A stretch of DNA of 32,795 nt from Clostridia bacterium (GTDB lineage Bacteria > Bacillota > Clostridia > Oscillospirales > CAG-272). The position numbers and the translations under genes are program-made. Below, in pieces: positions 1 to 19,548 of this stretch. Below the pieces are notes generated by a model. The model was not told where the DNA came from. It ran no database searches and saw only the letters and a list, made by a program, of their open reading frames with translations. Numbering within the stretch: position 1 is the stretch's first letter; each line of letters opens with the position of its first letter. The DNA is taken from positions 1-32,795 of the forward strand of contig JAFTUC010000023.1 of NCBI GenBank assembly GCA_017466445.1. The letters run 5' to 3'.

Positions 1-3000
1 ACCGTATGTCTTGGAAGTCAATCGCTCGTTTGCATCGAATACAAAGGTGTTGGTGGCAAGAATGTTTCCGTTTATATCGGTTTCAACGATCTTGGTCACG
101 TTGCCCTTGGCATCGTATGTATAATTATAGCATACTCCGCGTTCGTTGTCAATAAGCTGCTTCACTTTTCCGACGGAATCATAAGTCGCATTGCTGATAA
201 TTCTTTCGACATTATTCGTATCCGTGTACTTGCTGACAATGGGATTGCCGAGAATATCAGTCGTTACAGTGTTCTTTTCGTTTGAAGCATATTCGGTTGT
301 GATAACATCGTTTACATCATTAATGCCGGTTTTGGAATAACTCATCGACAAAAGTGTCGTGGTTGCTGCATTGTCGCCAACGGTTACCGTCTTGCTTCTG
401 CCAAGCTGGTCGAAGCTAAAACCAAAATTAAATCCATTGTGCGCAACACGCGTCAAATAACCGCGCGTGTAGAAGAACTGATTTTCGTTGGTTTTGTTCT
501 CAACAGTAGAGGACAAGGACATAAGATCGTCGGTGGTATCATCATAGGAGTAGTTGTATTCCTGACCGTTGACCGCAGTCTGTTTCAAAAGAAGATTGCG
601 AGAGGTGTCGTGCTGATAGGTCGTCTCGAGTTTTTCTCCGTTCAGCGTGTAGCGAGGATCACTTTCGGACTTTACAAAGGTTCCGTCCTGATAGCTGTGC
701 TCGGAGAACATATAGGTTCCGGGAGTGTCCTTGTGATAGGTCTTACGAGTCAATTCCTTACCATACGCGTTATAGGTGTACTCAATAACAAGTCCGCGAT
801 AATCCTGAGTCTTGATAAGATTGTGCTTGCTGTCATACTTATAGTCAGTAGTGTAACTGCGCCCATATCTGTCGATTACAGTAGTGCGTACAATATCAGA
901 ATCATCATCGGTATAATCGATGGTGGTAAGAACGCTATCCTTTTTGGTCGTAGTCATCTTAATATCCTTGCACTCACCGAATACATTGATCGAATCAATG
1001 GGAGTCTCGTCAGTTCTATAAGCATTTGTAGTAGAAATACCATCCACCGAGACGAGTCTTGCATTGGTAAAGTAACAAGTTCCGGTGTTACCGGTGTAAT
1101 CCAGCTTGACCGTAATACTGATCGGGCAACATTCTTTGTTCAAAACGAAGGGGATTGCGGCATACTGCCAACCGGTGTAGCCCACGTCATAGTTTTCAAA
1201 GTGTTCCTCGGCTTCACCGCCTTCATAGGTGACTTTGAGGCAAAGTCTGAACTTTGCACTGGAATTATCAGATTCCGCAGTAACGTTACCGGAGGCTTTC
1301 GCCCAAGCAGAGGCAACAAGGACGTTACCGTTCAGCTGACAATTACAAAGGTCAATCGTTTGTGACAAATATTTGCTATAACCTGAGGAAGTAAATCGAT
1401 ACGATTTCTTTCCGTTAATATAGCTTTGCGAGATGACGCTTCCACTGCCAACGGCAGACCAGCCAATAGGCTTGGAAGAACTGTTGACTTCGGTGAAGAA
1501 ACCATTCTGAATGAAGTTGGTTTCATCAGCAGAATCATTGCTCATCGACACAGACAAAGAACGGTATTTACCGATTCTACTGGTTTCCAAATTGTCAACG
1601 ATCGATTCGTAGCCGGAAATCTCGGTAATAGTAGATTCACTGATCTTAGAAGAGTCAGTAATATCGGTCATATCCTGATACGAGCTCAATTCACGACCGT
1701 TTGCATCAAACTTATAAACCGTTTTGATTTTGGTTCTATCGTTGACGATTGCGGTGGACTTGGCGCGATACTCAAAAGAGATAGAGTCGTCCTTAATTTC
1801 ATTGGATGTAGTAACGCTATTATCAACTACAATGGTATTGCCACTGATGGAGAGTGTTTCTACGCGTCCGTTAGTATCATACCCAATGGTGTGTTTGATG
1901 CCGGTATAATCAATCACCTGTTCGAGTCGTGAGTTGGCGCCATATACGAACTGTGTCTGGAGAGTTCCCTCGTTAGAATAAGCTGTATCAGCAGAAGGAT
2001 AGGTGATTGAGGTCAGCTCACCGGAGGAATTGTAATCGTACAGAATTGCACGATCCATGTCACCGTTATCAACAATCTTGGTCAGCATTCCGGAGTTATC
2101 ATAATACAACTGCGCGGAATGGTTAGTTCCGTCTACAACGCTGCTAAGTCTGCCATTGGTGTAGTTGAGGCAGCTTACGTTGCCGTTTGTGTCGATAAGC
2201 TGGATAAGCTTGCCGGCACTGTTGAAAGTCATCTTGTTACCTTTTTCATCAGTCAAGATGTGGGTGGTTGCGTGACCGCAAACACAGTTGCATTCTTCCT
2301 TATAGGTAAGTCCAAGACCGGCATCATCGGTAATCTCACCGTTCGCATTGGTATCGTTATACGTAAAATAATGACGCTTACCCTGTGCGTTAGTATAGAC
2401 AGCTTTGATACCGTGCTTTCCAATAACCTCCAAGGTCTGTTCTACAGAAAGCTTCCATCCCTTACCGTAGCGGTTAACAGAATTCGCATCCTCATTAACA
2501 TACTCGTGTCTATACAAGTGCGAAATAGACAGCGGCAGTTTGACACCTTCTGCAGTTACATCACCGTGAGCAAAGGACATCTTACCTGTGAACAGATTGA
2601 TGGAGCCAGTTCCGGCTCTGCCGTTTTCAAAAGTGTGGAACTTCTGGTGGTCGGAATACATATCAGTACTGGTATATTCAATATACATCTTGGGATGGTA
2701 CTTGTAATTTGCGTACAGAGAATATAGGTCAATATATGTAGAAACGCAATTACCGTTGCAACAGCAAGGATCCTCATTGTTCTTCTTAATAACGATGCAC
2801 TTTTCTTTTACAAAGGTTTTGGTAGGATCGTACCACCGTTCCATTGCAGCTGTCATATCGATCTCAAGCTCTCTCTCAGCGAGACGATGTTCTCCCCGAA
2901 GAGTATCAATTGCTGTCTCCATAGTGAGATTTTGTACATTTTCCCATTTGAAAGAATCAACCGAAAGAGTCTTTCCATCTGGATCGACAACAGGGGCAAT

Positions 3001-4077
3001 CGTGTAGTCTTCAATACTACCATTGTAGGATGCATAAGCTTTTTGATGGATAATCAAACCTGCTTTAGTAATCTTGAATCCATCAGCGAGTGTAGGAAGG
3101 CTAAACCCAATATACAAACGATGGATGTTTCCACAAGAATCTACACCAACACGTCTTCCGGCGTTTGTGTCAGATGCCGATACCTTGTTCCCGTTAGAAC
3201 AGAGTTCCACCATCTGAAGGCTGTTACCGCTATACCATGAGATCTCTACACGCGGATCGATCACAACAGGATATGCGCGTTCGGGATCGGAAAGCCAATC
3301 GCTATCCAGCACCAAATCAAGGAAGGTGCCCTCATCCATCTTGCGGATCTCATAATGAATATCGTCGCAAAAAGCGTCGTTTGCGTCTTCCATATACGCG
3401 GGAGGAATCTTCATTTCAGGCATTTCTGAACCAAGATCGTCATCATCGCGAACAAGCGATACTACCTTTTTGTCTTCGCTCAGAACAGGAAGCAGCCCTT
3501 TGAACTTCATCTGGAATGTGAATATTTTACAGTTGGGATTCTTTGTAAGAACGATGGATTCCTTCACGCCGTCATCGGAAACATCGTATTCCAAATCGAC
3601 ATTGGTATCAGCTCTTTCGTACTTTACAGAAGGATGATCACCGATATCCCAAGGATCGCGTTTCATCTTGTTAGCAAAGGCTGCCATTGACTTTTTGCGG
3701 CGAGATGTGCTTCTCGGGATAAATTTCCACGAGATTTCTCGATTGTCTTTTTCTACGGTGACAAAGTGTTCTTTGCCTTCTGTCTTTGGCAGTCTAACCT
3801 TGAAGCAAGGCATAATTGCTTCATAATCGGTATCTGTTTCCGTAACTTCAGACGAGATATCCACAAATTTTCCGGTATCGGGATTCAACTTGTGGATTGG
3901 ATGGTCATACATGACCGCCATGAAGTTACCGTTTTGAAGGCGGAAATGCTTGATATTCGCTCCGCGCTTCGAGGTGTCTTCATACAACACCTTCGATGTT
4001 GAAGGCTTCTTTTCTTCAAGTGTTAATTCTTCAACTTCAACATCATTGATAAAAAAATCTTTGTTTTCGTTAATCAT
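1..4077 (-). CDS. RHS/YD-repeat protein with DNRLRE-type N-terminal region, 3' end beyond the window
   Basis: The frame is open from an ATG at 4077 to the left edge (1,359 codons visible, no stop), so the C-terminus, where RHS proteins carry a variable and often toxic domain, cannot be seen. The ATG follows GAAAGGAAAC at good spacing. Residues 1-280 are an acidic beta-rich region; about 285-460 resembles a DNRLRE (disaggregatase-like) domain; at about 480-500 a segment containing SINLFTG opens the RHS core, followed by many degenerate YD repeats (GRxxxxxYDxxGN type). A block at about 855-1000 (QNGFF...GWSA...YRF) looks like a carbohydrate-binding module. There is no signal peptide or membrane segment at the N-terminus, so the export route is unclear. 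It lies 17 bp downstream of the DNRLRE-like gene, in the same operon. Family known: WapA/RHS-type polymorphic proteins. Function here (surface adhesin, effector or toxin delivery) is inference. Confidence 0.9.
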   Translation of the reverse strand, partial: MINENKDFFINDVEVEELTLEEKKPSTSKVLYEDTSKRGANIKHFRLQNGNFMAVMYDHPIHKLNPDTGKFVDISSEVTETDTDYEAIMPCFKVRLPKTEGKEHFVTVEKDNREISWKFIPRSTSRRKKSMAAFANKMKRDPWDIGDHPSVKYERADTNVDLEYDVSDDGVKESIVLTKNPNCKIFTFQMKFKGLLPVLSEDKKVVSLVRDDDDLGSEMPEMKIPPAYMEDANDAFCDDIHYEIRKMDEGTFLDLVLDSDWLSDPERAYPVVIDPRVEISWYSGNSLQMVELCSNGNKVSASDTNAGRRVGVDSCGNIHRLYIGFSLPTLADGFKITKAGLIIHQKAYASYNGSIEDYTIAPVVDPDGKTLSVDSFKWENVQNLTMETAIDTLRGEHRLAERELEIDMTAAMERWYDPTKTFVKEKCIVIKKNNEDPCCCNGNCVSTYIDLYSLYANYKYHPKMYIEYTSTDMYSDHQKFHTFENGRAGTGSINLFTGKMSFAHGDVTAEGVKLPLSISHLYRHEYVNEDANSVNRYGKGWKLSVEQTLEVIGKHGIKAVYTNAQGKRHYFTYNDTNANGEITDDAGLGLTYKEECNCVCGHATTHILTDEKGNKMTFNSAGKLIQLIDTNGNVSCLNYTNGRLSSVVDGTNHSAQLYYDNSGMLTKIVDNGDMDRAILYDYNSSGELTSITYPSADTAYSNEGTLQTQFVYGANSRLEQVIDYTGIKHTIGYDTNGRVETLSISGNTIVVDNSVTTSNEIKDDSISFEYRAKSTAIVNDRTKIKTVYKFDANGRELSSYQDMTDITDSSKISESTITEISGYESIVDNLETSRIGKYRSLSVSMSNDSADETNFIQNGFFTEVNSSSKPIGWSAVGSGSVISQSYINGKKSYRFTSSGYSKYLSQTIDLCNCQLNGNVLVASAWAKASGNVTAESDNSSAKFRLCLKVTYEGGEAEEHFENYDVGYTGWQYAAIPFVLNKECCPISITVKLDYTGNTGTCYFTNARLVSVDGISTTNAYRTDETPIDSINVFGECKDIKMTTTKKDSVLTTIDYTDDDSDIVRTTVIDRYGRSYTTDYKYDSKHNLIKTQDYRGLVIEYTYNAYGKELTRKTYHKDTPGTYMFSEHSYQDGTFVKSESDPRYTLNGEKLETTYQHDTSRNLLLKQTAVNGQEYNYSYDDTTDDLMSLSSTVENKTNENQFFYTRGYLTRVAHNGFNFGFSFDQLGRSKTVTVGDNAATTTLLSMSYSKTGINDVNDVITTEYASNEKNTVTTDILGNPIVSKYTDTNNVERIISNATYDSVGKVKQLIDNERGVCYNYTYDAKGNVTKIVETDINGNILATNTFVFDANERLTSKTYG

Positions 4078-4094: not shown

Positions 4095-5294
4095 TTAGTT
4101 TTTTAATTTGATTTCCAATATCTGAGGAGCCGAATAACAATCTCCTGTAGATATTGCAATAAAGTCGTCTTTGCCTTTCGGCTTTTTTAGAATTAGTCCT
4201 TCATTGTAGATCAATGTGCGATCGGTACGATTTACAAAAATCGTGGTTACATCAACTGTCAGATATCTGCAATTGTTATTTGAAACAGTAATTTTAGGAG
4301 ATGCGTTAACCTTTTTGTTCCAAGTAGAACCAAAACTGCAAAAGCGTTTTTCGGGAATGTAAACATCAACATTTTCAGGACTACCGTTTAAAATCGGAAT
4401 ATGAAGTAGTACTTTTTCAATACGTTCAGATACGATATCAGGAATTTTTGAAAAGTCCGGTCTTGAATATAGCCACTGTTCTCCAAACTCATTTGTTCTT
4501 CCGATAAAGCCAACAGCTCCGTAGGCATTGTTAACATCCGGATGAGCGCTTTCTACGGTTGTATCTTGAAACAATTTAGGTTCATATAAATTCACCTCGA
4601 ATATAAGACATCCATTTTTTCCGGAATGAAACAGGGAAATATCATAGGTTTGATTGCCTTTATCCAAATACTTTATTTCAGCCGGTAAAGCTCTGTTCTT
4701 TTCATCCCGTGCGTATAAGCTTGCAACGGAAAGAAAGGGCTTGAATTTTTCTTTCATTACCGAGAAACACAAGGAATTAAATCTTATGCTATCTTGTTTT
4801 GCCTCTGATTTAAGCTGTAATTGAAAACGATTTCCTTTCACTGTGAAACGCAATCCACTTAAGGTCGGAGTGATAATAACATTCGACTTGGAAGCAGTAT
4901 CTCTTTTATATATTTCAGGAACTTCCGACATGGTAATCGTGCACCTACCATCATTGTTTTCAAAGATACAATGATGGTGATTTACTGAAATGAGTCCGTT
5001 TGTGCCTTTGAATATTGCTCCGGTTTTAGTTGTTGTGAAATTTGTCTGAACCAAAGTTTTTGTTTTGATATTGTATATTGGTGTACTGAAACAGTAGGCT
5101 GTATTCCCAACTGATTCTTTTACCATAATACGATATCGGTTACTATTCCTTCTATCGATAATAAAATCGCTCATACCTCGAAGATATTTTATTTCTTTTA
5201 AGATCGCATTATATTGGTAGTCATTTTTGCTGCTCTTTATATTTATCACCTCCTGTTCAGAGCACTGTAAAATCCAATGGTTAGCCGGTGTCAC
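4095..5294 (-). CDS. DNRLRE-like beta-sandwich protein preceding the RHS gene
   Basis: Up to 399 residues. The C-terminal part (about 232-399) has the look of a DNRLRE domain: a YGAVGFIGRT start, an extended beta region with W and Y residues, and a terminal APQILEIKL strand like the APxLxIxY ending typical of these domains. The N-terminal half is beta-rich and not recognised. No signal peptide or membrane segment is seen. The coordinates use the outermost legal start (GTG at 5294), which has only a weak GGA upstream. The one strong ribosome-binding site, AGGAGGTG at 5247-5254, lies inside this frame and would place initiation near 5240, where the codon is ATA; the next ATG is at 5174. The true start is therefore uncertain. 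The gene is visibly more AT-rich than the biosynthetic operon beside it. It shares an operon with the RHS gene and probably a common structure or export route, but its role is unknown. Confidence 0.75.
   Translation of the reverse strand: MTPANHWILQCSEQEVINIKSSKNDYQYNAILKEIKYLRGMSDFIIDRRNSNRYRIMVKESVGNTAYCFSTPIYNIKTKTLVQTNFTTTKTGAIFKGTNGLISVNHHHCIFENNDGRCTITMSEVPEIYKRDTASKSNVIITPTLSGLRFTVKGNRFQLQLKSEAKQDSIRFNSLCFSVMKEKFKPFLSVASLYARDEKNRALPAEIKYLDKGNQTYDISLFHSGKNGCLIFEVNLYEPKLFQDTTVESAHPDVNNAYGAVGFIGRTNEFGEQWLYSRPDFSKIPDIVSERIEKVLLHIPILNGSPENVDVYIPEKRFCSFGSTWNKKVNASPKITVSNNNCRYLTVDVTTIFVNRTDRTLIYNEGLILKKPKGKDDFIAISTGDCYSAPQILEIKLKN
5238..5254 (-). promoter_or_regulatory. Strong Shine-Dalgarno without a canonical start codon at normal distance
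   Basis: On the minus strand AGGAGGTG (5254-5247) is followed by ATAAAT and then ATA (5240-5238), in frame with the DNRLRE-like protein and at ideal spacing. No ATG, GTG or TTG occurs at a usual distance; the GTG at 5249-5247 is part of the ribosome-binding site itself. Either a rare ATA start is used, or initiation occurs elsewhere and the site is fortuitous. Confidence 0.5.
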
Positions 5295-5363: not shown

Positions 5364-5402
5364 AGTATAAATGTTAACCACGACAGTTAGTGTCATAGTT
5401 AA
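5364..5402 (-). promoter_or_regulatory. Operator/promoter copy 1, in front of the DNRLRE-RHS operon
   Basis: The 27-bp imperfect palindrome at 5375-5401 reads TAACC-AC-GACA-GTTAG-TGTC-AT-AGTTA on the plus strand. Five bases beyond it on the minus strand is a -10-like TATACT (complement of 5364-5369). The far flank carries an A-tract/T-tract. The same palindrome, with the same 5-bp centre and the same distance to a -10-like element, precedes the HTH regulator at 10893-10930. No good -35 hexamer is seen 17 bp upstream, which would fit an activated promoter. Assignment to the island's regulator is inference. Confidence 0.75.
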
Positions 5403-5492: not shown

Positions 5493-6179
5493 TCACCCGG
5501 AATAAGAGTCGAAGTAACCGCGCATGTAGTCGTCGGGATCCGAGTAGTCAAATGCAGTGGTATTGCTTTGCTTTTTATCAGAAATAGACTTTTGTTCTGC
5601 CACATTAATGGGACTCATTTTCTCGAAAAATCTGTTAGATTTACTTGGTACGCTTGGAAGATTGGCGGCGCTTTCCTTGTAGGCAAGGAAACATTTGCGA
5701 CGTGTGAGCATATCTTTGAAAATCTTCAAGATCGCTTGTGCATCCTTTTCGTGTTCGGGCGTATACTCGATTTCAAGCTCAAAGTCTTTGTGACCGAGAT
5801 ATTCGTTCTTATCAAGCACAGCTTTATAGTGGGCGTCCTTGAGCACAACGCAACGTTTGGTAACAAGCTCACCATGAAGCTTCAATCCCATATCGGTAAA
5901 CGCATTGCTTTCAAGCCCGTTGCGGATTTCCATTTCGGTTTCCGTACTCTGATCGCTGCCTGATGCGTGCTTTTTCATCGTTGCCGTATACTTTCCGTCC
6001 TTCAAACGGATACGGCAGGTCGTGTTCTGACGGTTCATCGAGAAGTCGTCGGTGTCAAAGTAGTAATTGACCTGTGTGGTGATGGGCTTTTGGATCAAAG
6101 GACTCTCATAGCCTAAGTGTTCCATCAGATAGTCATACTCATCTTCTGTGAGCAGTAGCTTCTTTTCAAGTTCAGTCAT
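5493..6179 (-). CDS. CYTH-domain (triphosphate tunnel) protein
   Basis: 228 residues. The N-terminus has the CYTH signature ExExK as E3-L-E5-K-K7, followed by QVNYYFDT (about 36-43), CRIRLKD (about 55-61) and the acidic strand FELEIEY (133-139). These charged residues line the tunnel that binds triphosphate and metal in the CYTH/TTM superfamily, as in Bacillus YjbK-like proteins. Family members hydrolyse inorganic triphosphate, thiamine triphosphate or nucleoside triphosphates, or cyclise ATP; the substrate here is not predictable. The last 60 residues or so are low-complexity and end in a DDYMRGYFDSYSG tail that may be frameshifted. The ATG overlaps the ligase stop by 4 bp and follows AGGAGG, so translation is probably coupled. 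It is the last gene of the biosynthetic operon, and no terminator was recognised after it. Confidence 0.8.
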   Translation of the reverse strand: MTELEKKLLLTEDEYDYLMEHLGYESPLIQKPITTQVNYYFDTDDFSMNRQNTTCRIRLKDGKYTATMKKHASGSDQSTETEMEIRNGLESNAFTDMGLKLHGELVTKRCVVLKDAHYKAVLDKNEYLGHKDFELEIEYTPEHEKDAQAILKIFKDMLTRRKCFLAYKESAANLPSVPSKSNRFFEKMSPINVAEQKSISDKKQSNTTAFDYSDPDDYMRGYFDSYSG

Positions 6180-7549
6180 AATCTTTTCCTCCTGATAATT
6201 TTTCCCGAGCCGTTTTTGGGAAGCTCATCCAGCAGCTCAATAACAGACGGCACTTGGAAAGAGGGAAGTACTTTCATACAAAGCTGCTTAACCTCTTCCA
6301 CCGAAGAAAACGCTCCGACAAGCTTCATACCGATTTGTGTACCGAATGAATTCTGAAATCCGTAAACGAGGACTTCTTTGACGCGGAGATCCTGTTTGAC
6401 GACACCCTCAATTTCAGCAGGGTAAACGTTCATACCGGATTTGATGATCAGATCGTCGTTTCTTCCTTTGATTTTGAGGAAACCGGCATCGTTGATTATC
6501 GCAATATCGCCAGTACAAAGCCAGCTGTCTTTGAGCACCCTTGCCGTCTTTTCAGGCTCGCGATAGTATCCGAGCATTACGTTGTGACCTTTTACGTAGA
6601 GGATACCTTCCTCATTTGCGTGGCAGAGGTTGCCTTGCTCGTTCAAAATCTTGATTGATACCGATTTTAAAGGAATTCCTACGAAATCGGGATACTCTTC
6701 AAAATATTCGGGTGGCAAATAGCTGACACGAGGGCAGGCCTCAGTGAGCCCATAGATGTGATAAATCCTACAAGTTGGGAATGCCTCACGGATCTTCATA
6801 CCGACTTTAGCACTCATACATTCTCCGCTGATGGAGATATGACGGAGTGTTGCGGATGCGTTACTTCTGTTGAATCTTGCCATAATGGAGAGAAGCGTAG
6901 GTGTTCCGCAGAAAGCGGTGATACCATGCTCCTTGATCAGCTCAAGCATCTTGGTAGGATTGAACTGCTCGGAGTAGAAACGAATATTTGCGCCTCTTAC
7001 GATTGCGGTCAGAAATTCACCTGTGAGAACCGCACAGTGATACAGTGGACGTGCGATCAGAATCGTGTCACTCTTATCCAAAGTGAAATAATCGGCAATA
7101 TCCGAAACGTTCGTCAAGACATTTCGTTCACTGAGCATAGCCCCCTTGGGTTTACCGGTCGTTCCGGATGTACACATAATCAAGGCAGGATGCTCATCGG
7201 GAGCGATATACTGACTATCCTTGAGCTTGTACACAGTGATCTCACCGTTAGTGTCCATAATAATAGCATCGGGGCTGATCGTATCGAGAATCTTATTGCA
7301 GTGCGCTTCACCGTACCTCACAGAAAGGGGAACGGCGGTTACACCTGCTGCTAAGCAGGCGAGAAGGGACATCGCGGCAGCCATTTCGGAGGAGCAGAGA
7401 ATGGCGCAGCATTCCACGCCGTTCAATCTCTTCTCAAAGCATTCTGCCCAGATCATTGTTTCCTCAAAAGAAAGGGATGCTCCGTTTTCACAGATCTTTT
7501 GCTCGGGATTCTTGAGCATATGCTCCTTTATATAGTGCCAAAGCTTCAT
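6176..7549 (-). CDS. AMP-forming acyl ligase (ANL superfamily), probably loads the neighbouring ACP
   Basis: 457 residues with the full set of adenylating-enzyme motifs: phosphate loop TSGTTGKPKG (127-136), aromatic/Glu motif YGLTEA (266-271), ribose-binding TGD (346-348), hinge GRNDD (362-366) with IKSGMNVYPAEIE, and catalytic Lys in NGSGK (K450). The family activates a carboxylic acid as acyl-AMP and passes it to CoA or a carrier-protein thiol. A free-standing ACP gene two positions upstream in the same operon makes that ACP the likely acceptor (inference). It is shorter than typical long-chain acyl-CoA synthetases (about 500-560), so a small or medium acid is plausible. The acid itself cannot be read from the sequence. 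ATG 7549 follows AAAGGAG and overlaps the previous gene by 4 bp. Confidence 0.88.
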   Translation of the reverse strand: MKLWHYIKEHMLKNPEQKICENGASLSFEETMIWAECFEKRLNGVECCAILCSSEMAAAMSLLACLAAGVTAVPLSVRYGEAHCNKILDTISPDAIIMDTNGEITVYKLKDSQYIAPDEHPALIMCTSGTTGKPKGAMLSERNVLTNVSDIADYFTLDKSDTILIARPLYHCAVLTGEFLTAIVRGANIRFYSEQFNPTKMLELIKEHGITAFCGTPTLLSIMARFNRSNASATLRHISISGECMSAKVGMKIREAFPTCRIYHIYGLTEACPRVSYLPPEYFEEYPDFVGIPLKSVSIKILNEQGNLCHANEEGILYVKGHNVMLGYYREPEKTARVLKDSWLCTGDIAIINDAGFLKIKGRNDDLIIKSGMNVYPAEIEGVVKQDLRVKEVLVYGFQNSFGTQIGMKLVGAFSSVEEVKQLCMKVLPSFQVPSVIELLDELPKNGSGKIIRRKRL

Positions 7550-8556
7550 TTTACATCGTCTCCTTTCGCTTCTTCAATCAGCTTTTCCAAGATTTCCTTT
7601 TCCCTCTCCTTCAAGCTTAGAAGTTTCTTTTGGATCATCGGTAGAACCGAATTTCGCTGTTTCATATGGTGTGCTGCGTAGAGCATACGGCAGTTGTCGG
7701 CTTCGCGCACAACCGACTTGTATGCGTTGCTGAAAGAATGATCCAATGAAAGCGCATCCTCGATCAGCTTGATTCTTTCAAGCATAACCTTCTTGTGCTC
7801 CCAGATCATTCGGAACACGCGGCGGTCCATTTTCTCATAGGGAATAGATCCGTCGTACAGCTTGCCGACGTACTTTGCGATGTAGTCGTGAACTACGATT
7901 CCGGATACCGTTCCTTCCTCGGTCTCGAGATACTTCTCAAGGTTGGAATCAAGATACTCGGCAATTTTCTTCAGTGCGGTTTCGTGAGAGAATACGATCT
8001 GATCCCCCTTGGGCTTGATACCGCAAATGCTTCCGTATTGCTTCTTTTTGAACTGTGCTTTCCTTCCTGCATCAAATGATTTCTGCGTGGTCCAGAACTT
8101 GTGATAGATCCAGTTCTGATCGTAGGAGTAGATGCAGTAGGTCTTATTCTCCTGATCGTATCCGCAAATGCAACCGTCGTGATTGAAATGTCGTTCGTGA
8201 TACCAGCTTTTACCCTCAACGTAGTAATCGTCGATTCCGCTGAAGCAAACATAATATCCCGCATCGAGAAGCTTACGGATAACGAAATGCACGTGACCTT
8301 CAAGAAACTGCATTCCGTACCACTTCTTGTCGAAATGAGGGTTCACATTCCAAGAGGATTCTGCTATACCGATTTCGGGAGTGGTAAATCCATTCAGAAA
8401 CTTTCTGGTACAGGTAAGGATCATGACCTGATTCAGATACCAGTTTCGGATCGAAGGATTATTGACAAGAACAGCCGTGCCGGGACCTTGATAATGATAG
8501 GTGCTGTAAAGCGGTTCAACAAGAGGAAGCTCAATCTTCTTTTTTATTTTCTTCAT
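7546..8556 (-). CDS. BtrH-like putative ACP-dependent acyltransferase
   Basis: 336 residues from the ATG at 8556, which has GGCGGTGAG upstream; a longer frame to 8619 lies inside the ACP gene and lacks a ribosome-binding site. The region 84-134 (GHVHFVIRKLL, GYYVCFSGIDDYY, HFNHDGCICGYD) followed by YCIYSYD resembles the N-terminal domain of BtrH. In butirosin biosynthesis BtrH moves an acyl group from an acyl carrier protein to an aminoglycoside. That likeness comes from pattern recognition, not alignment. Candidate catalytic residues are C49, H120, H123 and H126. The C-terminal part (about 190-336) is helical and ends in a charged coiled-coil-like stretch. The gene overlaps the ACP by 26 bp and the ligase by 4 bp, which supports transfer of the ACP-bound acyl group to an unknown amine or alcohol acceptor. 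Confidence 0.6.
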   Translation of the reverse strand: MKKIKKKIELPLVEPLYSTYHYQGPGTAVLVNNPSIRNWYLNQVMILTCTRKFLNGFTTPEIGIAESSWNVNPHFDKKWYGMQFLEGHVHFVIRKLLDAGYYVCFSGIDDYYVEGKSWYHERHFNHDGCICGYDQENKTYCIYSYDQNWIYHKFWTTQKSFDAGRKAQFKKKQYGSICGIKPKGDQIVFSHETALKKIAEYLDSNLEKYLETEEGTVSGIVVHDYIAKYVGKLYDGSIPYEKMDRRVFRMIWEHKKVMLERIKLIEDALSLDHSFSNAYKSVVREADNCRMLYAAHHMKQRNSVLPMIQKKLLSLKEREKEILEKLIEEAKGDDVK

Positions 8557-8797
8557 TGTTCTCACCGCCTGCATACTTTTCCACAAGATCGACAACCTGC
8601 CATACGTTGACGAGATCAAAAGGATTCATATCCGATTCATCCAACGTAATCTGGAAGTTTTCTTCGAGCATCATAAGAAGCGTTACCATTTGAAGACTGT
8701 CAAGACCGAGATCGGATTGAAGCTCGTGCTCAAGACAAATCGTTTCGATTCCGCTAAGTTCGGATAAAATTACACATACTTTATCAAAGAATTCCAT
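8531..8797 (-). CDS. Acyl carrier protein
   Basis: 88 residues with the ACP fold pattern and the phosphopantetheine attachment motif LGLDSLQMV, with S34 as the modified serine. The flanking helix-2 pattern (MVTLLMMLEENFQITLDESD) is typical. The C-terminus is a charged Asn/Glu/Lys tail. It is not in a fatty-acid operon: neighbours are an AMP ligase and a BtrH-like protein, so it is probably a dedicated carrier for the pathway. No phosphopantetheinyl transferase is seen in the window, so a host enzyme or one elsewhere on the island must activate it. The start overlaps the kinase-like gene by 14 bp and follows AAGGAG; the end overlaps the BtrH-like gene by 26 bp. Confidence 0.9.
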   Translation of the reverse strand: MEFFDKVCVILSELSGIETICLEHELQSDLGLDSLQMVTLLMMLEENFQITLDESDMNPFDLVNVWQVVDLVEKYAGGENNEENKKED

Positions 8798-9428
8798 TGC
8801 GAAGCATCTCCTTTACTGCATTTTTTACGATACCGTAGCACTCATCCTCGGACTGCATAGTTGAGATGAGAATGCCTCCGTTGGCGGTGCAGATATCTAC
8901 GTATTCCTTGCGGAGCTTGTATTGAAGCTCCATGTCAATGTAGCGATCCTTTTCTTCGGGACGACGACGAACACGTGCAACCGCTTCCTCCACGGGAACG
9001 TCAAAGAAGAAGGCGATATCGGGCATGATTACCGATTCTGCGATTTCGTAGATCCAAGCATCCTTTTCAAATCCTCTTGCACGAAGATTGGCGAGGCAGG
9101 AATAGAAATATCTGTCGCTGAGAACGATCTTGCCTTGCTTCATTTCGGGTTCGATTACTTTATTGACGTGCTGCAAACGATCACTTGCGGCGAGCAGAGA
9201 AAGACTGCGGTAATCAAAGGCATCGTGATCAGGGCAGTCCATGTAGGTTCGGAAGATTTCCGAATTACGCACCGCGTTGGTGGGCTGCTTTGTTACAAAT
9301 AGCTCGTGCTCTTTTTCAAGATCGGTAATGAGGCGCTTCATCATTGTCGTCTTACCGCATCCATCAAGACCGCAGAACGTGATGAGGAAGCCGGGCGTTT
9401 CATTTTTTCGCATATTAAGGTGCTTCAT
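8784..9428 (-). CDS. Thymidylate-kinase-like P-loop kinase
   Basis: 214 residues from the ATG at 9428, chosen because AAGGAGG lies 9 bases upstream; a TTG three codons earlier is too close to that site. The P-loop GLDGCGKTT is at 20-28, a DRY motif at 105-107 (SDRYFYSCLA), and an Arg-rich LID-like segment (RRRPEEKDR) at 154-162, as in dTMP kinases. The usual TREPG motif is changed to TKQPT (46-50). The change and the operon context argue against a housekeeping tmk and for phosphorylation of a pathway intermediate. Duplicated Tmk-like kinases occur in several specialised-metabolite and surface-polymer clusters. The gene overlaps the nucleotidyltransferase by 14 bp and the ACP by 14 bp. Confidence 0.8.
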   Translation of the reverse strand: MKHLNMRKNETPGFLITFCGLDGCGKTTMMKRLITDLEKEHELFVTKQPTNAVRNSEIFRTYMDCPDHDAFDYRSLSLLAASDRLQHVNKVIEPEMKQGKIVLSDRYFYSCLANLRARGFEKDAWIYEIAESVIMPDIAFFFDVPVEEAVARVRRRPEEKDRYIDMELQYKLRKEYVDICTANGGILISTMQSEDECYGIVKNAVKEMLRNGIL

Positions 9429-10500
9429 TTTCGTCAACCTCCTTCAGATCCTCGGCTCGCGCTTCCATGAAGAAGCGCTCGGTTACGTCGTTTGTTTGAT
9501 ACTTCAATACCTTCTTATCCTTTGGGGAAGCAACTCTCAGACAAAAGTCGGGATCATCCTCAAGTACTACGTTAGCAATACCGTAAGCAAAGGTGTTGTC
9601 CATATCGAAAAGTCCCATCGTTTCAAGAACCGTATAAGCGCAGACCTTTTCCATACCGAGTTCGGTGGCTCTTGCAAAAATTCTTTCAAGCTGTGCGTCG
9701 GTCATTTCCGAGAGCAGCATATAGATGTCGCAGTACTTATATAACGTCATATCGCGGTGCATCTCGATCCACGGAAGCGTAGTAGCTTCCTTGTAAAGAT
9801 GCGCGCAAAGATGGATAAAAAAATCTGCGTCATCGAGCATAGGAATGGAAAGCTCTTTTTCGTTCTTGATGCAAACGTTCGATAGCATATCCGAAAGCGT
9901 ATCGCCAGTGCCATTCTTATAGTCGAGGGAGAAGTTGATGTCTACCTCGAAGAACTTCATAAACGGAAGATTGACTTCCTTGATGTAGGGAACCGTTTCG
10001 CCGCGCATCATCTTGGACTCAATGATCTCCTGTCTTGTTGCGGGGACAAATTCGCCGTTTCTTATGTTACCCTGCATGAACCCTGCGGAAGAGAGGAGAT
10101 GACCGATTGAGGTAACGTCTTTCGGTAAAACGAGCAGATCCACGTCATTCGAGGTTCTGTAACCGTCAGGATAATGAGCGCACAGATAGGCACCCTTGAG
10201 CATAGCAACCTTGCAGGTACAGGGAGAGAGAATCTCGGAAAGCATAACGATACACTTCTCGAAGCTATCGTTCTTTTGAATATTCTGATCGTATGCTGTA
10301 CCGAGGGAATTACGGAATTCACGGTTAACTTTTCCCAGAAGATTGTGTCTTTTAAGTGTGCCGTAAGCCACGCCTTGCATCCTATTGAAGAAAAGTTGTC
10401 CAAGAACCGTGGGGGTAGCAAACTCTAAAAGGGAAGTGTCAAACCAGTTTTCCTTAAATTTGCATAGTGCCTTAAATAATTGTTTTTCTTTTTCTTTCAT
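9415..10500 (-). CDS. Nucleotidyltransferase-fold protein (NTP_transf_5 type)
   Basis: 361 residues. The core pattern is LKGAYL (101-106), then YRTSNDVDLLV (114-124) with metal-binding D119 and D121, and a later acidic strand FFEVDINF with D187. This matches the uncharacterised nucleotidyltransferase family found beside lasso-peptide and other natural-product genes. All three expected acidic residues are present, so it is probably active, transferring a nucleotide to an unknown substrate. The N-terminal 80 residues and C-terminal 130 are helical. The ATG follows AAAGGA and lies 17 bp after the regulator, making this the first enzyme gene of the operon. The pairing with a kinase next door suggests sequential phosphoryl and nucleotidyl transfers (inference). 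Confidence 0.75.
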   Translation of the reverse strand: MKEKEKQLFKALCKFKENWFDTSLLEFATPTVLGQLFFNRMQGVAYGTLKRHNLLGKVNREFRNSLGTAYDQNIQKNDSFEKCIVMLSEILSPCTCKVAMLKGAYLCAHYPDGYRTSNDVDLLVLPKDVTSIGHLLSSAGFMQGNIRNGEFVPATRQEIIESKMMRGETVPYIKEVNLPFMKFFEVDINFSLDYKNGTGDTLSDMLSNVCIKNEKELSIPMLDDADFFIHLCAHLYKEATTLPWIEMHRDMTLYKYCDIYMLLSEMTDAQLERIFARATELGMEKVCAYTVLETMGLFDMDNTFAYGIANVVLEDDPDFCLRVASPKDKKVLKYQTNDVTERFFMEARAEDLKEVDENEAP

Positions 10501-10517: not shown

Positions 10518-10865
10518 TTAAATTTTGGGTTTGGTGTACTGCGAGATAAGAAATCCGAGCAGTTTCTTTTCATCGGATGTAAGTAACAAAGCAGTCTCGT
10601 CAGCTGCAGCGTATACCTTATGTAATACATCGAGTTCTGCATCCGTCATATACATACGATCCATAGAATAACCTTCGATAACGTATACACCGCCTCCGTA
10701 TTTTCCGGACTGTGTAAAGATCGGCTCGGTTCTGCTCAGGATTTCTATATCACGCTGAATGGTTCGAGGGGAAACACCGAGCTCCGATGCCAAATTATGT
10801 GTTGTTTCATATCTGCGCCGGCACAGTATTTTCATAATTTGGTGTCTTCGCTCGGCTGTTCCCAT
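10518..10865 (-). CDS. Short HTH_11/DeoR-like regulator without WYL domain
   Basis: 115 residues. Start chosen at 10865: GGAGGTG lies 7 bases upstream, and the ATG six codons earlier overlaps that site. Residues 1-60 form a winged helix of the YafY/DeoR type (LASELGVSPRTIQRDIEIL, then a SGKYGGGV wing). The rest (MTDAELDVLHKVY...LLGFLISQYT) is a short helical tail. Most relatives carry a WYL sensor domain (about 300 residues in total); this one ends before it. The gene is directly preceded by a 27-bp palindrome that also occurs before the DNRLRE/RHS operon, so autoregulation plus control of both island operons is the natural reading. The signal is unknown. Confidence 0.85.
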   Translation of the reverse strand: MGTAERRHQIMKILCRRRYETTHNLASELGVSPRTIQRDIEILSRTEPIFTQSGKYGGGVYVIEGYSMDRMYMTDAELDVLHKVYAAADETALLLTSDEKKLLGFLISQYTKPKI

Positions 10866-10892
10866 ATAGTCTATCACCTCCATTACGCCATT

Positions 10893-10930
10893 AGTTTAAA
10901 CGCTAACCTAGACAACTACTGTCGTGGTTA
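10893..10930 (-). promoter_or_regulatory. Operator/promoter copy 2, in front of the HTH regulator operon
   Basis: The near-perfect 27-bp palindrome at 10904-10930 reads TAACC-TA-GACA-ACTAC-TGTC-GT-GGTTA. On the minus strand a -10-like TAAACT (complement of 10893-10898) follows after five bases, the same geometry as copy 1. The stretch between operator and -10 is also conserved (GTTAGCGTTTAAACTA versus GTTAACATTTATACTA), and both copies have an A/T-tract on the outer side. This is probably the target of the regulator it precedes. Confidence 0.78.
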
Positions 10931-11048
10931 AAAAACTTTTTGAAGATGATAATAGTATGATAGAATTTAAACAACTGAGCGTAACAGCTTATCTTTTCAC
11001 ACATCCTCTTCTAATAATTTTTCTAACAAACATCCCGAAAACGAGAAA

Positions 11049-11171: not shown

Positions 11172-11223
11172 TTCAGGTTCTTATGATCGCAAGGTTGTGC
11201 AGGTTCAAGTCCTGTCGCCCGCA
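11172..11223 (+). other. 3' half of tRNA-Leu(CAG): probable integration (att) site
   Basis: The sequence runs from the anticodon loop TTCAGGT (11172-11178, anticodon CAG) through the 3' anticodon stem TCTTA, a variable arm GATC-GCAA-GGTT, a T-arm (GCAGG/TTCAAGT/CCTGT, 11199-11215), the acceptor strand CGCCCGC and discriminator A at 11223. Upstream of the loop, tRNA identity stops: TTAAA cannot pair properly with TCTTA, and no D-arm or 5' acceptor strand exists. A break at the anticodon loop is typical of tyrosine-integrase attachment sites. Because the displaced 3' end keeps the downstream terminator, the inserted element should lie to the left. No integrase is present in the window. Confidence 0.85.
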
Positions 11224-11262
11224 TACACAAAAAGCACGGCATATGCCGTGCTTTTTGTGTAT
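11223..11262 (+). terminator. 40-bp perfect palindrome, terminator of the former tRNA gene
   Basis: ATACACAAAAAGCACGGCAT is followed directly by its exact reverse complement, a 20-bp stem with A- and T-tracts. It starts at the tRNA discriminator base, as expected for a tRNA terminator, and can work on both strands. Its 28-bp core recurs at 15778-15805. Confidence 0.85.
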
Positions 11263-15812: not shown

Positions 15813-17660
15813 TTAACTTTCGCGATATTTCCTGGATTGAAGCTCAAACATTTCCGCGTATTTGCCTCCGAAATCAAGCAGCTCTGTATGAGATCCCTGC
15901 TCGATAAGATGTCCTTTTTCAAACATGTAGATCTTGTCGGCTATGCGTGTCGTTGAAAGTCGGTGCGATATAAATATTACCGTTTTTTCTGACGTGCGCT
16001 CAAGGATCGATCTGTTCAGATTGTATTCCGCATTCGGATCTAGCGCGCTTGAAGGCTCATCCATAATGACGATAGGGAAGCTTTTGGCAAAAACTCGTGA
16101 AATCGCGATCTTTTGAGATTCTCCTCCCGATAGATTAGTTCCTTTTTCATCGAATTCTCTTGTAAGATGCGTGTGTATCCCGTCCTCGAGCGTTGATAGC
16201 TTTTCGGTGAAATCGGACGCCTCAAGAGCATCAATGACCGTGCTTTCCATTTCATCGGAATATTCTCCGTTCATTACGTTTTCCGCAATCGATGTTGCAA
16301 AGATCTTGAAATCTTGAAATACGGTTCCTATTTTCGAGCGGTATTTTTCTATATCGTACTGACGTATGTCAACTCCGTTGTAGAGGATCTCGCCTTCGCT
16401 CGGGTCGTAAAGACGCATTATGAGCTTTATGAGAGTGGTCTTGCCCGCTCCGTTGTATCCGACTATTGCTATCTTTTCACCCTTGTTTATTTTGAGGCTT
16501 ACATTGCACAGCGCATCGTTTGCTTCAGCGTCCGTGTGGGATTTGTGATCCGCGTCGTGGTACTGATATTTCGGATGCGAAGCAAATTCGTAGGAAAAGC
16601 TTACGTTTCTGAGCTCAAGACTTTCAAATTCGGGTACGTCCTCCGTCCCGCTTTTTACCTTGTTGTCAAAATTCATAAACTCAAGGTATTTTTCCACGTA
16701 AAGAGAATGCTTGGGATATTTCGTTATGCGTTGGATAAGATCTACGAGCATCCAACGTATGCGAAATACGACTCCGACGCTTGCTACCATACTGCCTACG
16801 GCAAGCCCCTTTCCGAGCATGGATATCATGTATAAAATGATACCGAATACGGTAAGTGTTCCGAGCGCCTCGAATCCGAGACCGAATATAAGGAAATATT
16901 TCTTTCCGTATTTCATATCGCACTCGATAAGCTTTTGAGTGTTTTCGTCGTACTGCTTTTCAAGAAGCTCGCTTGCGTGACTGATACGTATCTCCTTTGC
17001 GTGATCGGACAGACGGTAGACTCTGTTTATGTATCCCTTTTTTCTGTAAAGCGGATTGCTTTCCTTACTGTGAGCAAAGCTTACCTTGTTGCCGATCAGA
17101 TTGCAGATCACCGTTACCGTGCAGGATGCAAACAAGATCAGCGCGACTGTCGGATCTACCGTCAAAAGCAGAGTGAAAAGGGTGGAGGATGCCACTATGC
17201 GGTTTATAAGCTTTCCGGTATCCTCTATTATATCGACCGCCCGCCTGTCGGACTCGTTCATGGCCCATACAAAATCATTGTAAAATTCGGGATCGTCAAA
17301 GCATGAGAGGTCTATCGAGCGTGCCTTTGCGAACATCTCCTCGTGCATGCTGAGATGGAGCTTTTGCCGCATAAGAGGATTTTTTATCCGCCAGTACCAC
17401 TGATCAAATGCGTACGCAAGTAAATAGAATGTGGCCATAACGGCGATTATTTTTGCGGCGTAAGAAAAGGAACAGCCGGCGCCTACCGCATTGAGTAGCT
17501 TGTAGCTGAATATCGCAGTGGCTGAATTTATAAGACCCCATATAACGCCCTCGACTATCATCAGTATGAAATATTCGGGAGTGTGCTTTGCTATTTTTCC
17601 GAGCATTATGGCATTGTTTTTGATTATCGAGGAGAGCCTTTGTCTTTTTTTCTTATTCAT
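15813..17660 (-). CDS. ABC exporter half-transporter (membrane domain fused to ATPase), second gene
   Basis: 615 residues. N-terminal membrane domain (about 25-320), C-terminal ATPase. Walker A GYNGAGKTT (401-409), Q-loop VFQDF (447-451), signature LSGGESQK (510-517), Walker B VIMDEP with D534 and catalytic E535, and the switch His in FISHRLS. All ATPase residues appear intact. An unusual His/Asp-rich insert of about 20 residues (region of HPKYQYHDADHKSHTD) lies near the start of the ATPase domain and could bind metal. The gene overlaps the upstream ABC gene by 8 bp, so the two probably form a heterodimeric exporter in the cytoplasmic membrane. Substrate unknown: drug, peptide or lipid. Confidence 0.88.
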   Translation of the reverse strand: MNKKKRQRLSSIIKNNAIMLGKIAKHTPEYFILMIVEGVIWGLINSATAIFSYKLLNAVGAGCSFSYAAKIIAVMATFYLLAYAFDQWYWRIKNPLMRQKLHLSMHEEMFAKARSIDLSCFDDPEFYNDFVWAMNESDRRAVDIIEDTGKLINRIVASSTLFTLLLTVDPTVALILFASCTVTVICNLIGNKVSFAHSKESNPLYRKKGYINRVYRLSDHAKEIRISHASELLEKQYDENTQKLIECDMKYGKKYFLIFGLGFEALGTLTVFGIILYMISMLGKGLAVGSMVASVGVVFRIRWMLVDLIQRITKYPKHSLYVEKYLEFMNFDNKVKSGTEDVPEFESLELRNVSFSYEFASHPKYQYHDADHKSHTDAEANDALCNVSLKINKGEKIAIVGYNGAGKTTLIKLIMRLYDPSEGEILYNGVDIRQYDIEKYRSKIGTVFQDFKIFATSIAENVMNGEYSDEMESTVIDALEASDFTEKLSTLEDGIHTHLTREFDEKGTNLSGGESQKIAISRVFAKSFPIVIMDEPSSALDPNAEYNLNRSILERTSEKTVIFISHRLSTTRIADKIYMFEKGHLIEQGSHTELLDFGGKYAEMFELQSRKYRES

Positions 17661-19488
17661 TGACGCTCACCTCGCTTCCAAGATAATTTTCCGCTTGCCT
17701 TCGGAACATTTCCGCGTATTTGCCGTTCTTTGAGATGAGCTCTGCGTGCGTGCCGATCTCCGCTATCCTTCCGCTATCCATAAGTATTATTTTGTCAGCG
17801 AGGACCGCTGAGGACAGACGGTGAGATATAAATATAACGCTGCGCCCTTCGGTAGCCCTCATCATGTTTTCGAACATTTTGTACTCTGCTATAGGATCGA
17901 GAGCGCTTGAAGGCTCGTCGAGTAAGAGAAACGGCCTTTCATCTGCAAATACACGTGCGAGAAGAACCTTTTGCTGCTCGCCAGTTGAGAGATTTGCTCC
18001 GTTTTCGTCGAATTCTCTTGTGAGTATCGAATCAGCCTTGTTTTCAAGGAGCTCAATCCTTTCCCACGCTCCGCTTTCCTTAAGAGCATTTTCGACCCGC
18101 TCAGGATCCCCTTCTGCTTCCGGGCGGAGAAGGATGTTCTCACGAACGCTCATTGAGAACATTTTGAAATCCTGAAACACGGTGCTGAAAAGATCTCTGT
18201 ACGACTGCGACTCAAGCTCCTTGATGTTTTCTCCCTCAAGCAGAATCTCTCCGTTTTGCGGGTCATAAAGACGGAGCAAAAGCTTTACAAGCGTGCTTTT
18301 TCCCGACCCGTTGCTTCCGACAAGCGCGATGCGCTCTCCCTTTTTCCAGATGAAGGATATATCGCTGAGCGCATTCTTGTCACTTCCGTCATATCTGAAT
18401 GAGAGATTCTTTACCGATATTTCGCCAAGACACTTGTCTGCGATCTTATCTCCCGAAACGACCGTGATCTCGTGATCGAGAAAGGTCCTCACGTCCTCTA
18501 AGAAAAGAGCGTGCTCGCCGAATTCTGCAAGATTCTGTACGAGATTGTTAAGACAGTATGATATCGTACCGATAGAGGTAAGCACCACGATGCAGTCTCC
18601 GATCGTCATACCTCCGTTCGCGCTTCCGAGCTCTATCGCGCTCCAGACCGAATATAGGGTCGCTCCAAGTACGGTTATGACCTCAAGACCTATCCTTTGA
18701 ACGTAACCGTATATCGCTTTTTTTCCTCCGTACTTTTTAGTGAGAGACTTGAAGTCTCCGTATGCCTCTCGCAGGTCACGGAGCATACTTGCGTACATTC
18801 CTCCGATACGCATCTCTTTTGCGTATTCTCCGAGATAAAAGGTTCGCTTTACATAATCGGTACGCCTTGTTACCGGCTTTTTTGCGACCTCAAGATCGTG
18901 ATTTGCCACGTTTTCAAGGCGGCGGAAAAATCCGAGAAGGAGCGGGAAGAGCCCGAAAACAGCGAGCCACGGATCGATTATAAAGAGAAGGAGCGAATTC
19001 GCCAGAAGAGCGATGATCCTCGAAATAAGGTTGTCAAGAGTGTACATTACCTTCATCACTCGGTTGTACGCCTCGTCCATAGCCTTTACGTAATTGTCGT
19101 AAAACGCAGGATCCTCATAGCAGGCAAGCTCTAATTCGGACGCCTTTTTAAAAAGCATCTTCTCAACGTGGGCTCCCACAAGCTTTTGCTTTATGGGAGA
19201 GATCACGTTCCAAAAGTAATTGAGCGCCAGATAACATATCAGGGTCGTTATTCCGAGTATCAGGGTAAAGCGTATTACACTTTCGATGCTGTCGCCCTTT
19301 TCAATGCTGTTTACTATCCTTCGCAGCAGATATCCCTCGCCAAGGAATCCGAGAATACCGTACACGAGCGAGGAGCCGAGATATACGGAAAGATATATGG
19401 GAGATGCTTCCCAGATTACCTTGAGCGCAAACAGGTTGTTTGACAGTGTTTGCCTAAGCGGCAGTTTTTTCTTTTTTTGATCCTTCAA
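17653..19488 (-). CDS. ABC exporter half-transporter, first gene of the pair
   Basis: 611 residues from the TTG at 19488, chosen because AAAAGGAGG (19500-19508) lies at normal spacing. An in-frame GTG at 19548 would start inside a terminator hairpin, though GGAGGG lies 11 bases upstream of it. The membrane domain spans about 20-310; the ATPase has Walker A GSNGSGKST, Q-loop VFQDF, a variant signature LSTGEQQK (Thr for the usual Gly), Walker B LLLDEP with the catalytic Glu, and FISHRLS. It pairs with the following gene. Expression is probably controlled by attenuation: promoter, structured leader and terminator all lie between 19519 and 19714. Confidence 0.88.
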   Translation of the reverse strand: MKDQKKKKLPLRQTLSNNLFALKVIWEASPIYLSVYLGSSLVYGILGFLGEGYLLRRIVNSIEKGDSIESVIRFTLILGITTLICYLALNYFWNVISPIKQKLVGAHVEKMLFKKASELELACYEDPAFYDNYVKAMDEAYNRVMKVMYTLDNLISRIIALLANSLLLFIIDPWLAVFGLFPLLLGFFRRLENVANHDLEVAKKPVTRRTDYVKRTFYLGEYAKEMRIGGMYASMLRDLREAYGDFKSLTKKYGGKKAIYGYVQRIGLEVITVLGATLYSVWSAIELGSANGGMTIGDCIVVLTSIGTISYCLNNLVQNLAEFGEHALFLEDVRTFLDHEITVVSGDKIADKCLGEISVKNLSFRYDGSDKNALSDISFIWKKGERIALVGSNGSGKSTLVKLLLRLYDPQNGEILLEGENIKELESQSYRDLFSTVFQDFKMFSMSVRENILLRPEAEGDPERVENALKESGAWERIELLENKADSILTREFDENGANLSTGEQQKVLLARVFADERPFLLLDEPSSALDPIAEYKMFENMMRATEGRSVIFISHRLSSAVLADKIILMDSGRIAEIGTHAELISKNGKYAEMFRRQAENYLGSEVSVNE

Positions 19489-19518
19489 ATCCTTATAAAC
19501 CTCCTTTTCGGACTCAAT

Positions 19519-19548
19519 AAAAAAGTGTGCCCCAAGTAGAGGGCACAC
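19519..19548 (-). terminator. Intrinsic terminator in the 5' leader of the ABC exporter operon
   Basis: On the minus strand GTGTGCCC (19548-19541), loop TCTACTTG, GGGCACAC (19532-19525), then six T (19524-19519). It lies between the promoter and the ribosome-binding site. GGAGGG a few bases upstream can pair with the overlapping CCCTCT, giving an alternative antiterminator. Confidence 0.8.

Follow-up and report, generated by a model that had tools for sequence, protein, structure and literature searches.

Several described systems come close to the one reported here. CcbD and LmbD act in lincosamide condensation, CtaG in the formation of closthioamide and BtrH in that of butirosin. Known enzymes of the CcbD fold use small acceptors. 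AziU3/U2, from azinomycin aziridine formation, is described in a review as an aziridine synthase with sulfate displacement implicated. Among RHS-type proteins, the polymorphic toxin WapA of Streptococcus suis includes a DNRLRE domain; WapA proteins are said to carry a signal peptide and are accompanied in S. suis by a cognate sortase (SrtB) and a SecF-like partner (PMC12704120). DNRLRE members are related to the carbohydrate-binding family CBM96 (PMC9971899). Here we describe a locus on contig JAFTUC010000023.1 of a Clostridia bacterium (assembly GCA_017466445.1), analysed over its whole stretch of 32,795 nucleotides (the window). An operon for a carrier protein, a ligase, a BtrH-like protein, a nucleotidyltransferase and a kinase has a palindromic operator in common with neighbouring DNRLRE and RHS genes. 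Neither such a system nor a pairing of the operon with RHS genes is described in the open-licence literature among the matches listed.

The operon consists of the following elements.

10903 to 10931, no strand: palindromic operator upstream of the helix-turn-helix (HTH) gene and the operon, consensus TTAANCNNGACANNNNNTGTCNNGNTTAA
10518 to 10865, minus strand: short HTH_11/DeoR-type regulator (Pfam), heading the operon; start near 10865 conserved, open reading frame (ORF) opens at 10883
9415 to 10500, minus strand: NTP_transf_5 nucleotidyltransferase with polymerase-beta-like fold (Pfam PF14907)
8784 to 9428, minus strand: thymidylate-kinase-like P-loop kinase; ATG start, ORF opens at 9437
8531 to 8797, minus strand: acyl/peptidyl carrier protein (ACP) with Ser34 in a DSL motif (Pfam PP-binding)
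7546 to 8556, minus strand: BtrH-like protein of the CcbD/CtaG/AziU3 fold, without the N-terminal catalytic Cys; ATG start, ORF opens at 8619
6176 to 7549, minus strand: AMP-forming acyl/aryl ligase (Pfam AMP-binding and AMP-binding_C)
5493 to 6179, minus strand: CYTH triphosphate-tunnel domain protein, accessory (Pfam PF01928)

The initial annotation had listed six overlapping minus-strand ORFs from the nucleotidyltransferase to the CYTH protein. ORF coordinates confirm their positions and their overlaps of 14, 14, 26, 4 and 4 bp, and Pfam gives five of the six the same names (E-values: NTP_transf_5 1.8e-28, Thymidylate_kin 1.3e-27, PP-binding 6.7e-9, AMP-binding 5.3e-60, CYTH 8.8e-15). The HTH gene is separated from the first core gene by a gap of 17 bases and points in the same direction; it and the operator belong to the operon, though they lie outside those six genes. 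All seven genes are under purifying selection, with ratios of nonsynonymous to synonymous substitution rates (dN/dS) of 0.04 to 0.23 in 18 of 27 gene comparisons against loci L026, L027, L028 and L031, the remaining nine having saturated dS.

A single-protein search (E 1e-3) located the BtrH-like gene in 8 of 59 relatives, some matches being weak and one a stretch with stops; a profile search located it in 23 of 394 genomes of the order, weak matches included. A nine-row profile scan of the GTDB genome collection yielded 41 loci, nearly all from metagenome bins of Clostridia and kin and several from animal gut samples; together with the window this gives 42 places. Gene calling relied on a simple ORF caller plus local profiles. 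Since the scan required the conserved motifs of the BtrH-like protein, remote relatives are under-sampled. The five core genes (nucleotidyltransferase, kinase, ACP, BtrH-like protein and ligase) are all present in 34 of the 42 places, and their order is conserved in other genomes. The initial annotation had named a lack of joint conservation as a refuting result; it did not occur. Eight places have no full core (L043, L044, L049, L057, L062, L063, L065 and L066). Of these, L057 has a very short contig; L062, L063 and L066 all stem from one genome (G012/G557) that holds a full core at L045.

Two arrangements can be distinguished, defined after inspection of the loci. Class I (32 places including the window, 30 of them with all five core genes) runs in the order HTH, nucleotidyltransferase, kinase, ACP, BtrH-like protein and ligase, followed by CYTH in 19 places. 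An HTH gene was recognised at 26 of these 32 places and in 27 of the 41 loci. Because of contig ends, the class I counts for CYTH and HTH are lower bounds. Class II (L050, L053, L060 and L064) shows two ABC genes, nucleotidyltransferase, kinase, ACP, ligase, CYTH and BtrH-like protein. CYTH had been counted as a member of the set; it is present in the window and in all four class II places but is not a constant companion in class I, where some contigs end before its position.

The BtrH-like protein has no Pfam match over the cut-off; BtrH_N (PF14399) does not match it, and PF14399 gives no match in the window's genome (G000). Searching solved structures by sequence with the BtrH-like profile gave nothing significant. 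Despite the missing match to the Pfam model, the BtrH-like fold proposed earlier is borne out by structure prediction. The confident model shows a papain-like core with a C-terminal helical domain and resembles CcbD, CtaG and AziU3 across nearly its full length, AziU3 being the best Foldseek match.

The active site departs from these templates. In an alignment of 39 sequences, the column of the template catalytic Cys falls on H21 and holds His in 33, Asn in three, Gln in two, Pro in one and Cys in none; this assignment was made by alignment and not by coordinates. Hence butirosin-type ping-pong chemistry is probably not used, as judged from the sequences. Cys is also absent from that column in two of 11 BtrH_N-type reference proteins (L116 and L118), so its lack is not unique. 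H126, the catalytic His of an H..GYD-type motif, is conserved in 39 of 39. The initial annotation had suggested that ligase, ACP and BtrH-like protein load and transfer an acid as in butirosin. The carrier-protein pathway is supported, while the butirosin parallel cannot be transferred directly with the catalytic Cys missing, and a butirosin-like side-chain transfer by the usual Cys is thereby weakened.

Active-site motifs are conserved in the other operon enzymes as well. Ser34 of the ACP is found in 36 of 36 sequences, and the ExExK motif of CYTH is retained in the aligned proteins (E3 22/23, E5 23/23, K7 22/23). The nucleotidyltransferase scores 100.2 bits against NTP_transf_5 (cut-off 31.2) and has no significant match by sequence among PDB structures. 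The kinase matches TIGR00041 (dTMP kinase) with 97.2 bits (cut-off 83.25). The window's genome encodes a second, higher-scoring Tmk elsewhere (160 bits); G012 shows the operon copy only. Eleven columns differ consistently between 35 operon kinase copies and three other copies.

Downstream of the operon lie the following features, of which the second operator copy stands ahead of the two genes.

5374 to 5402, no strand: second operator copy, same pattern, upstream of DNRLRE/RHS
4095 to 5294, minus strand: stand-alone DNRLRE (CBM96-like) protein without obvious signal peptide (NF033679); true start uncertain
1 to 4077, minus strand: RHS protein with DUF6531 and RHS repeats, without obvious signal peptide, cut by the contig end

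Eleven whole genomes were searched for the operator, allowing up to two mismatches and using the reversed pattern as control. The operator matches in six of the 11, the reversed control in G075 only. In the window's genome it occurs at exactly two places, 10903 (operon) and 5374 (DNRLRE/RHS). G020 has two operator places, before the operon and before an Rv2525c/Ig-like block, and G035 has two as well, before the operon and heading an XhlA-holin module. Genomes G001-G003, of the same genus, show no operator match, and no BtrH-like gene was found in them; G012 and G154 carry cores yet have no operator match. A related pattern, for which the sites on the HTH side and the DNRLRE site of the window served as source, finds 41 sites versus one for its reverse in 705,134 bases (the window plus the 41 loci). 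The HTH gene or the first core gene follows 24 of these sites; 15 precede DNRLRE, RHS, Ig-like, Rv2525c-like, XhlA or phosphoesterase genes, and two are unassigned. Given how the pattern was derived, the other module sites are independent evidence. At least one site is present in 25 of 32 class I places (none in L039, L040, L045, L046, L048, L051 and L057), and there are zero in class II. The HTH protein presumably binds the operator. The co-regulation with DNRLRE/RHS that had been raised for this locus is thus supported as far as a common operator sequence can show it.

Where at least 1.5 kb of sequence is available on the given side, class I places have a cargo-type gene within 6 kb downstream in 27 of 29 cases versus 6 of 24 upstream, one of the six (L051) being a phosphoesterase only. 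The two exceptions are L039, with a divergent DNRLRE/RHS pair upstream, and L046. In class II, cargo-type genes are found in none of four places on either side. The window's DNRLRE protein matches NF033679 below the cut-off (1.5e-7, 31.6 bits, cut-off 34), and its RHS protein has PF05593 repeats (1.2e-12). The relative of this RHS protein in L031 has a PT-HINT domain; the C-terminus of the window's own protein is beyond the contig end. Pfam further identifies Big_2 together with RHS in L044 and L035, Rv2525c-like domains in L034 and L035, the Hol44 holin in L036 and Amidase_3 in L044. XhlA is a weak match below the cut-off, and a 948-aa protein of L027 labelled RHS has no Pfam match. The other cargo labels were assigned by phmmer, using proteins of these kinds as queries (E 1e-6), and may switch from RHS to Ig-like or back (L029). 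Genome-level co-occurrence of RHS and operon was set aside as evidence; only proximity and operator are used, because RHS is common in the group (23 of 59 genomes) and PF05593 is unmatched in the operon-bearing G020 and G035.

By a crude hydrophobicity rule with uncurated starts, a signal-like N-terminus is lacking in 18 of 20 DNRLRE, 7 of 8 Rv2525c-like, 9 of 10 Ig-like and 14 of 16 long RHS proteins, compared to 112 of 212 other genes above 200 aa. The RHS proteins of L052 and L058 do have one. A holin is not a general companion. The Hol44 family (PF16079) is present in G011 and G035, under the operator in G035. It was not found in the incomplete assembly G000 or in G012, G020 and G387, all of which bear cores; other holin families were not searched. 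A phosphoesterase with hydrophobic N-terminus also lies near XhlA/holin genes (L036:13748-14659, L034:3340-4428, L048:12662-13552 and L043:13197-14150). It is a Pfam Metallophos protein in L036, the others being assigned by similarity, and has its own operator copy in L034 and L043.

Compared in steps of 250 bases, window and L031 are 0.56-0.67 identical (mean about 0.61) through the core. Inside CYTH the identity rises to 0.78-0.99 (mean about 0.91) and stays there through DNRLRE and RHS. Accordingly for CYTH, dS is 0.60 between the two, the other genes being saturated or above 2. These sequences are most simply read as an exchange of the cargo block among loci whose resident cores are divergent.

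Taken together, we favour, if tentatively and short of real confidence, a regulated carrier-protein (thiotemplate) pathway that makes a small free phospho- or nucleotidyl-acyl conjugate and is switched together with giant proteins. The ligase would activate a carboxylic acid as acyl-AMP and load it onto the phosphopantetheine arm at Ser34 of the ACP. The BtrH-like enzyme would take the ACP-bound group and join it to an acceptor, or cyclise it, via His126 and without a Cys nucleophile at the usual place. Nucleotidyltransferase and Tmk-like kinase would add nucleotidyl and phosphoryl groups to the acid, to the acceptor or to their conjugate; in the places that have CYTH, it would handle a triphosphate. 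The operon's own HTH regulator would control the pathway, such that one switch yields the product along with DNRLRE, RHS, Ig-like and Rv2525c-like giants, mostly without signal peptides, joined in some genomes by a holin module. The analysis directly shows the gene set and its conservation, the predicted folds and conserved motifs, the operator sequence in common and the linkage; binding of the operator by the HTH protein, each step of the chemistry and the existence of the product as a free molecule are inferred.

A free small molecule is favoured because of the class II surroundings. Pfam finds exporter-type ABC proteins in L050 and L053, and a nitroreductase in L060 and L053. L050 and L060 also have AraC-type regulators, and L050 a phosphopantetheinyl transferase; the remaining class II genes were judged from size and position. 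Clear relatives of the L050/L053 ABC pair occur in L060 and L064 (653 to 680 bits). In a quick tree the four class II BtrH-like proteins group with L066 (94% SH-aLRT, fork drawn open).

Several points weigh against the free conjugate. An acceptor-building enzyme is not recognised among the genes read, and the BtrH-like protein is missing the canonical catalytic Cys. Class II loci are few and come from metagenome bins. Clear relatives of their ABC pair are absent from the 31 fetched class I loci, and no such pair stands beside class I operons, other transporter kinds not having been searched for. In 16 of 41 loci the DNRLRE gene begins within 100 bp of the final gene of the operon or overlaps with it, some of these overlaps being inflated by start choice. 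Finally, L043 and L044 have a BtrH-like gene near RHS in genomes where no full-length core nucleotidyltransferase was found, the L043 genome giving one partial match (5e-9).

These last points lead to a second explanation, which is a genuine possibility though we hold it doubtful. The BtrH-like enzyme or a partner would attach the built group to DNRLRE, RHS or Ig-like proteins and thereby activate or anchor them. RTX toxins, which are acylated from acyl-ACP, offer a parallel in outline. Such an effect on proteins is favoured by the linkage seen in class I, by DNRLRE genes lying so near the operon and by the BtrH-like genes that stand next to RHS in L043 and L044. The restriction of the operator to operon and DNRLRE/RHS in the window's genome and the mostly signal-less giants, by the crude rule, fit as well, as does the S. 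suis WapA with its own SrtB and SecF-like partner (PMC12704120). Against this stand the class II cores with no RHS/DNRLRE neighbour and the unrelated kinds of partner proteins. The contrast between the cargo block and the core in window and L031 means that one cargo kind can sit with divergent cores. Moreover, the known enzymes of this fold, CcbD among them, act on small acceptors.

An effect on the envelope is improbable. Here the product would alter the producer surface for display or release of the giants, or shield the producer from them. It would agree with the operator common to cell-wall-active or holin-type genes in some genomes (XhlA/Hol44, Rv2525c-like) and with Amidase_3 in the XhlA/holin block of L044, a block that has no operator match. 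The core, however, is without an envelope-biosynthesis enzyme, and no Hol44 holin was found in the window's genome, whose assembly is incomplete. A chance neighbourhood with no common pathway, to be considered as gene overlap is frequent in bacteria and the loci were gathered through one gene, is already contradicted by the same five genes in mostly the same order where BtrH-like identity to the window is as low as 36-41% and by a second arrangement with the same set, and can practically be dismissed.

A further-reaching picture, which we consider unlikely but worth stating, is that gut Clostridia possess a weapon or display system not described before. In it, a single HTH regulator would switch a Cys-less BtrH-fold pathway together with giant RHS, Ig-like or carbohydrate-binding proteins, mostly without signal peptides. 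The phospho- or nucleotidyl-acyl product would be attached to the giants, activating or anchoring them, with exchange of the cargo block between resident cores. If the overall reading of the locus is right, thiotemplate biosynthesis and RHS-type contact or display proteins, usually studied separately, would be joined under one operator, and the activation, anchoring or accompaniment of signal-less giant RHS proteins would become testable.

Some additional observations concern the regulatory region. In 12 loci (L034, L036, L038, L041, L047, L049, L052, L054, L055, L056, L058 and L059) a conserved leader upstream of the HTH gene shows ACTTGTTAA and ATCAAGA blocks and, after them, a terminator-like hairpin (e.g. 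L036:7520-7628). The alignment has 26 invariant columns in the 12 sequences, several of which are close kin. The leader may be a regulatory RNA or attenuator. Rfam at gathering thresholds finds nothing at the leader in the six of 12 loci searched, and viral_contigs contains no copy of a 22-base piece taken from it. The leader is preceded by a small ORF with CxxC motifs (57-73 aa in 11 of 12), reminiscent of phage Com zinc ribbons; the ORF of L036 has no Pfam match. In the window, 11180-11260 (minus strand), upstream of the operon, resembles a degenerate tRNA 3' part and is possibly an old integration site, as its sequence suggests. A tRNA integration site was suspected there; ARAGORN calls no tRNA in the window.

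Other observations concern the surroundings and origin of the core. Two class II loci have a ~290-aa protein without Pfam match between kinase and ACP (L050:7034-7903 and L060:7076-7942). As read from the sequence, BtrH-like or core genes stand beside apparent clusters for ribosomally synthesised and post-translationally modified peptides (RiPPs) at L053:8837-18153, L062:1675-10978 and L066:9690-16636, with short Cys-rich peptides, a radical SAM protein (L053) and subtilisin-like and ABC genes. In L097 and L098 (relatives G003 and G011) PF14399 proteins adjoin NTP_transf_5-looking proteins by reading, and the BtrH_N and NTP_transf_5 pair may recur outside the operon. The window holds two weaker ABC pairs (129 to 199 bits) at least 7 kb from the BtrH-like gene. 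Both (15813-19548 and 28583-32259) were considered as the missing exporter and rejected; the nearer one is no closer to the class II ABC proteins than to those of RiPP-like loci, and a divergent gene block lies between. A phage origin of the core was rejected, with no BtrH-like relatives in viral_contigs (10 pattern stretches, none confirmed) or phages, and so was a plasmid origin, with one weak plasmid match only (25% identity).

Compared to holin-dependent (type 10) secretion, with TcdE and Yersinia entomophaga toxin release as examples, the XhlA/holin module under the operon's operator in some genomes and the giants mostly without signal peptides are similar. The dedicated carrier-protein operon in the regulon is different, and so is the window's genome, an incomplete assembly, in having no Hol44 holin found. 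WapA-type Gram-positive RHS proteins have DNRLRE, DUF6531 and RHS repeats in common with the locus, and PT-HINT with the L031 relative. Unlike there, DNRLRE is a separate protein, most long RHS proteins have no signal-like N-terminus by our crude rule, and the companion is a carrier-protein operon in place of a sortase or SecF-like protein. The NTP_transf_5 protein resembles MenT and ANT/Lnu nucleotidyltransferases in fold (residues about 78-298); by sequence it has no significant PDB match. AziU3 has the same fold as the BtrH-like protein, in contrast to which AziU3/U2 is described as an aziridine synthase. With CcbD/LmbD and CtaG the BtrH-like protein shares nearly the whole length of the fold (CcbD and CtaG by structure), and BtrH_N-type proteins resemble it by profile. 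ACP and ligase as partners in the operon and the conserved His of the H..GYD-type motif are further likenesses. In contrast to CcbD, CtaG and BtrH, the operon's protein has neither catalytic Cys nor Pfam BtrH_N match, and the operon adds a nucleotidyltransferase and a Tmk-like kinase and is linked to RHS-type proteins. If this reading is right, the CcbD/CtaG fold gains a Cys-less branch, with a bearing on the ways in which carrier-bound groups can be transferred without a covalent enzyme intermediate.

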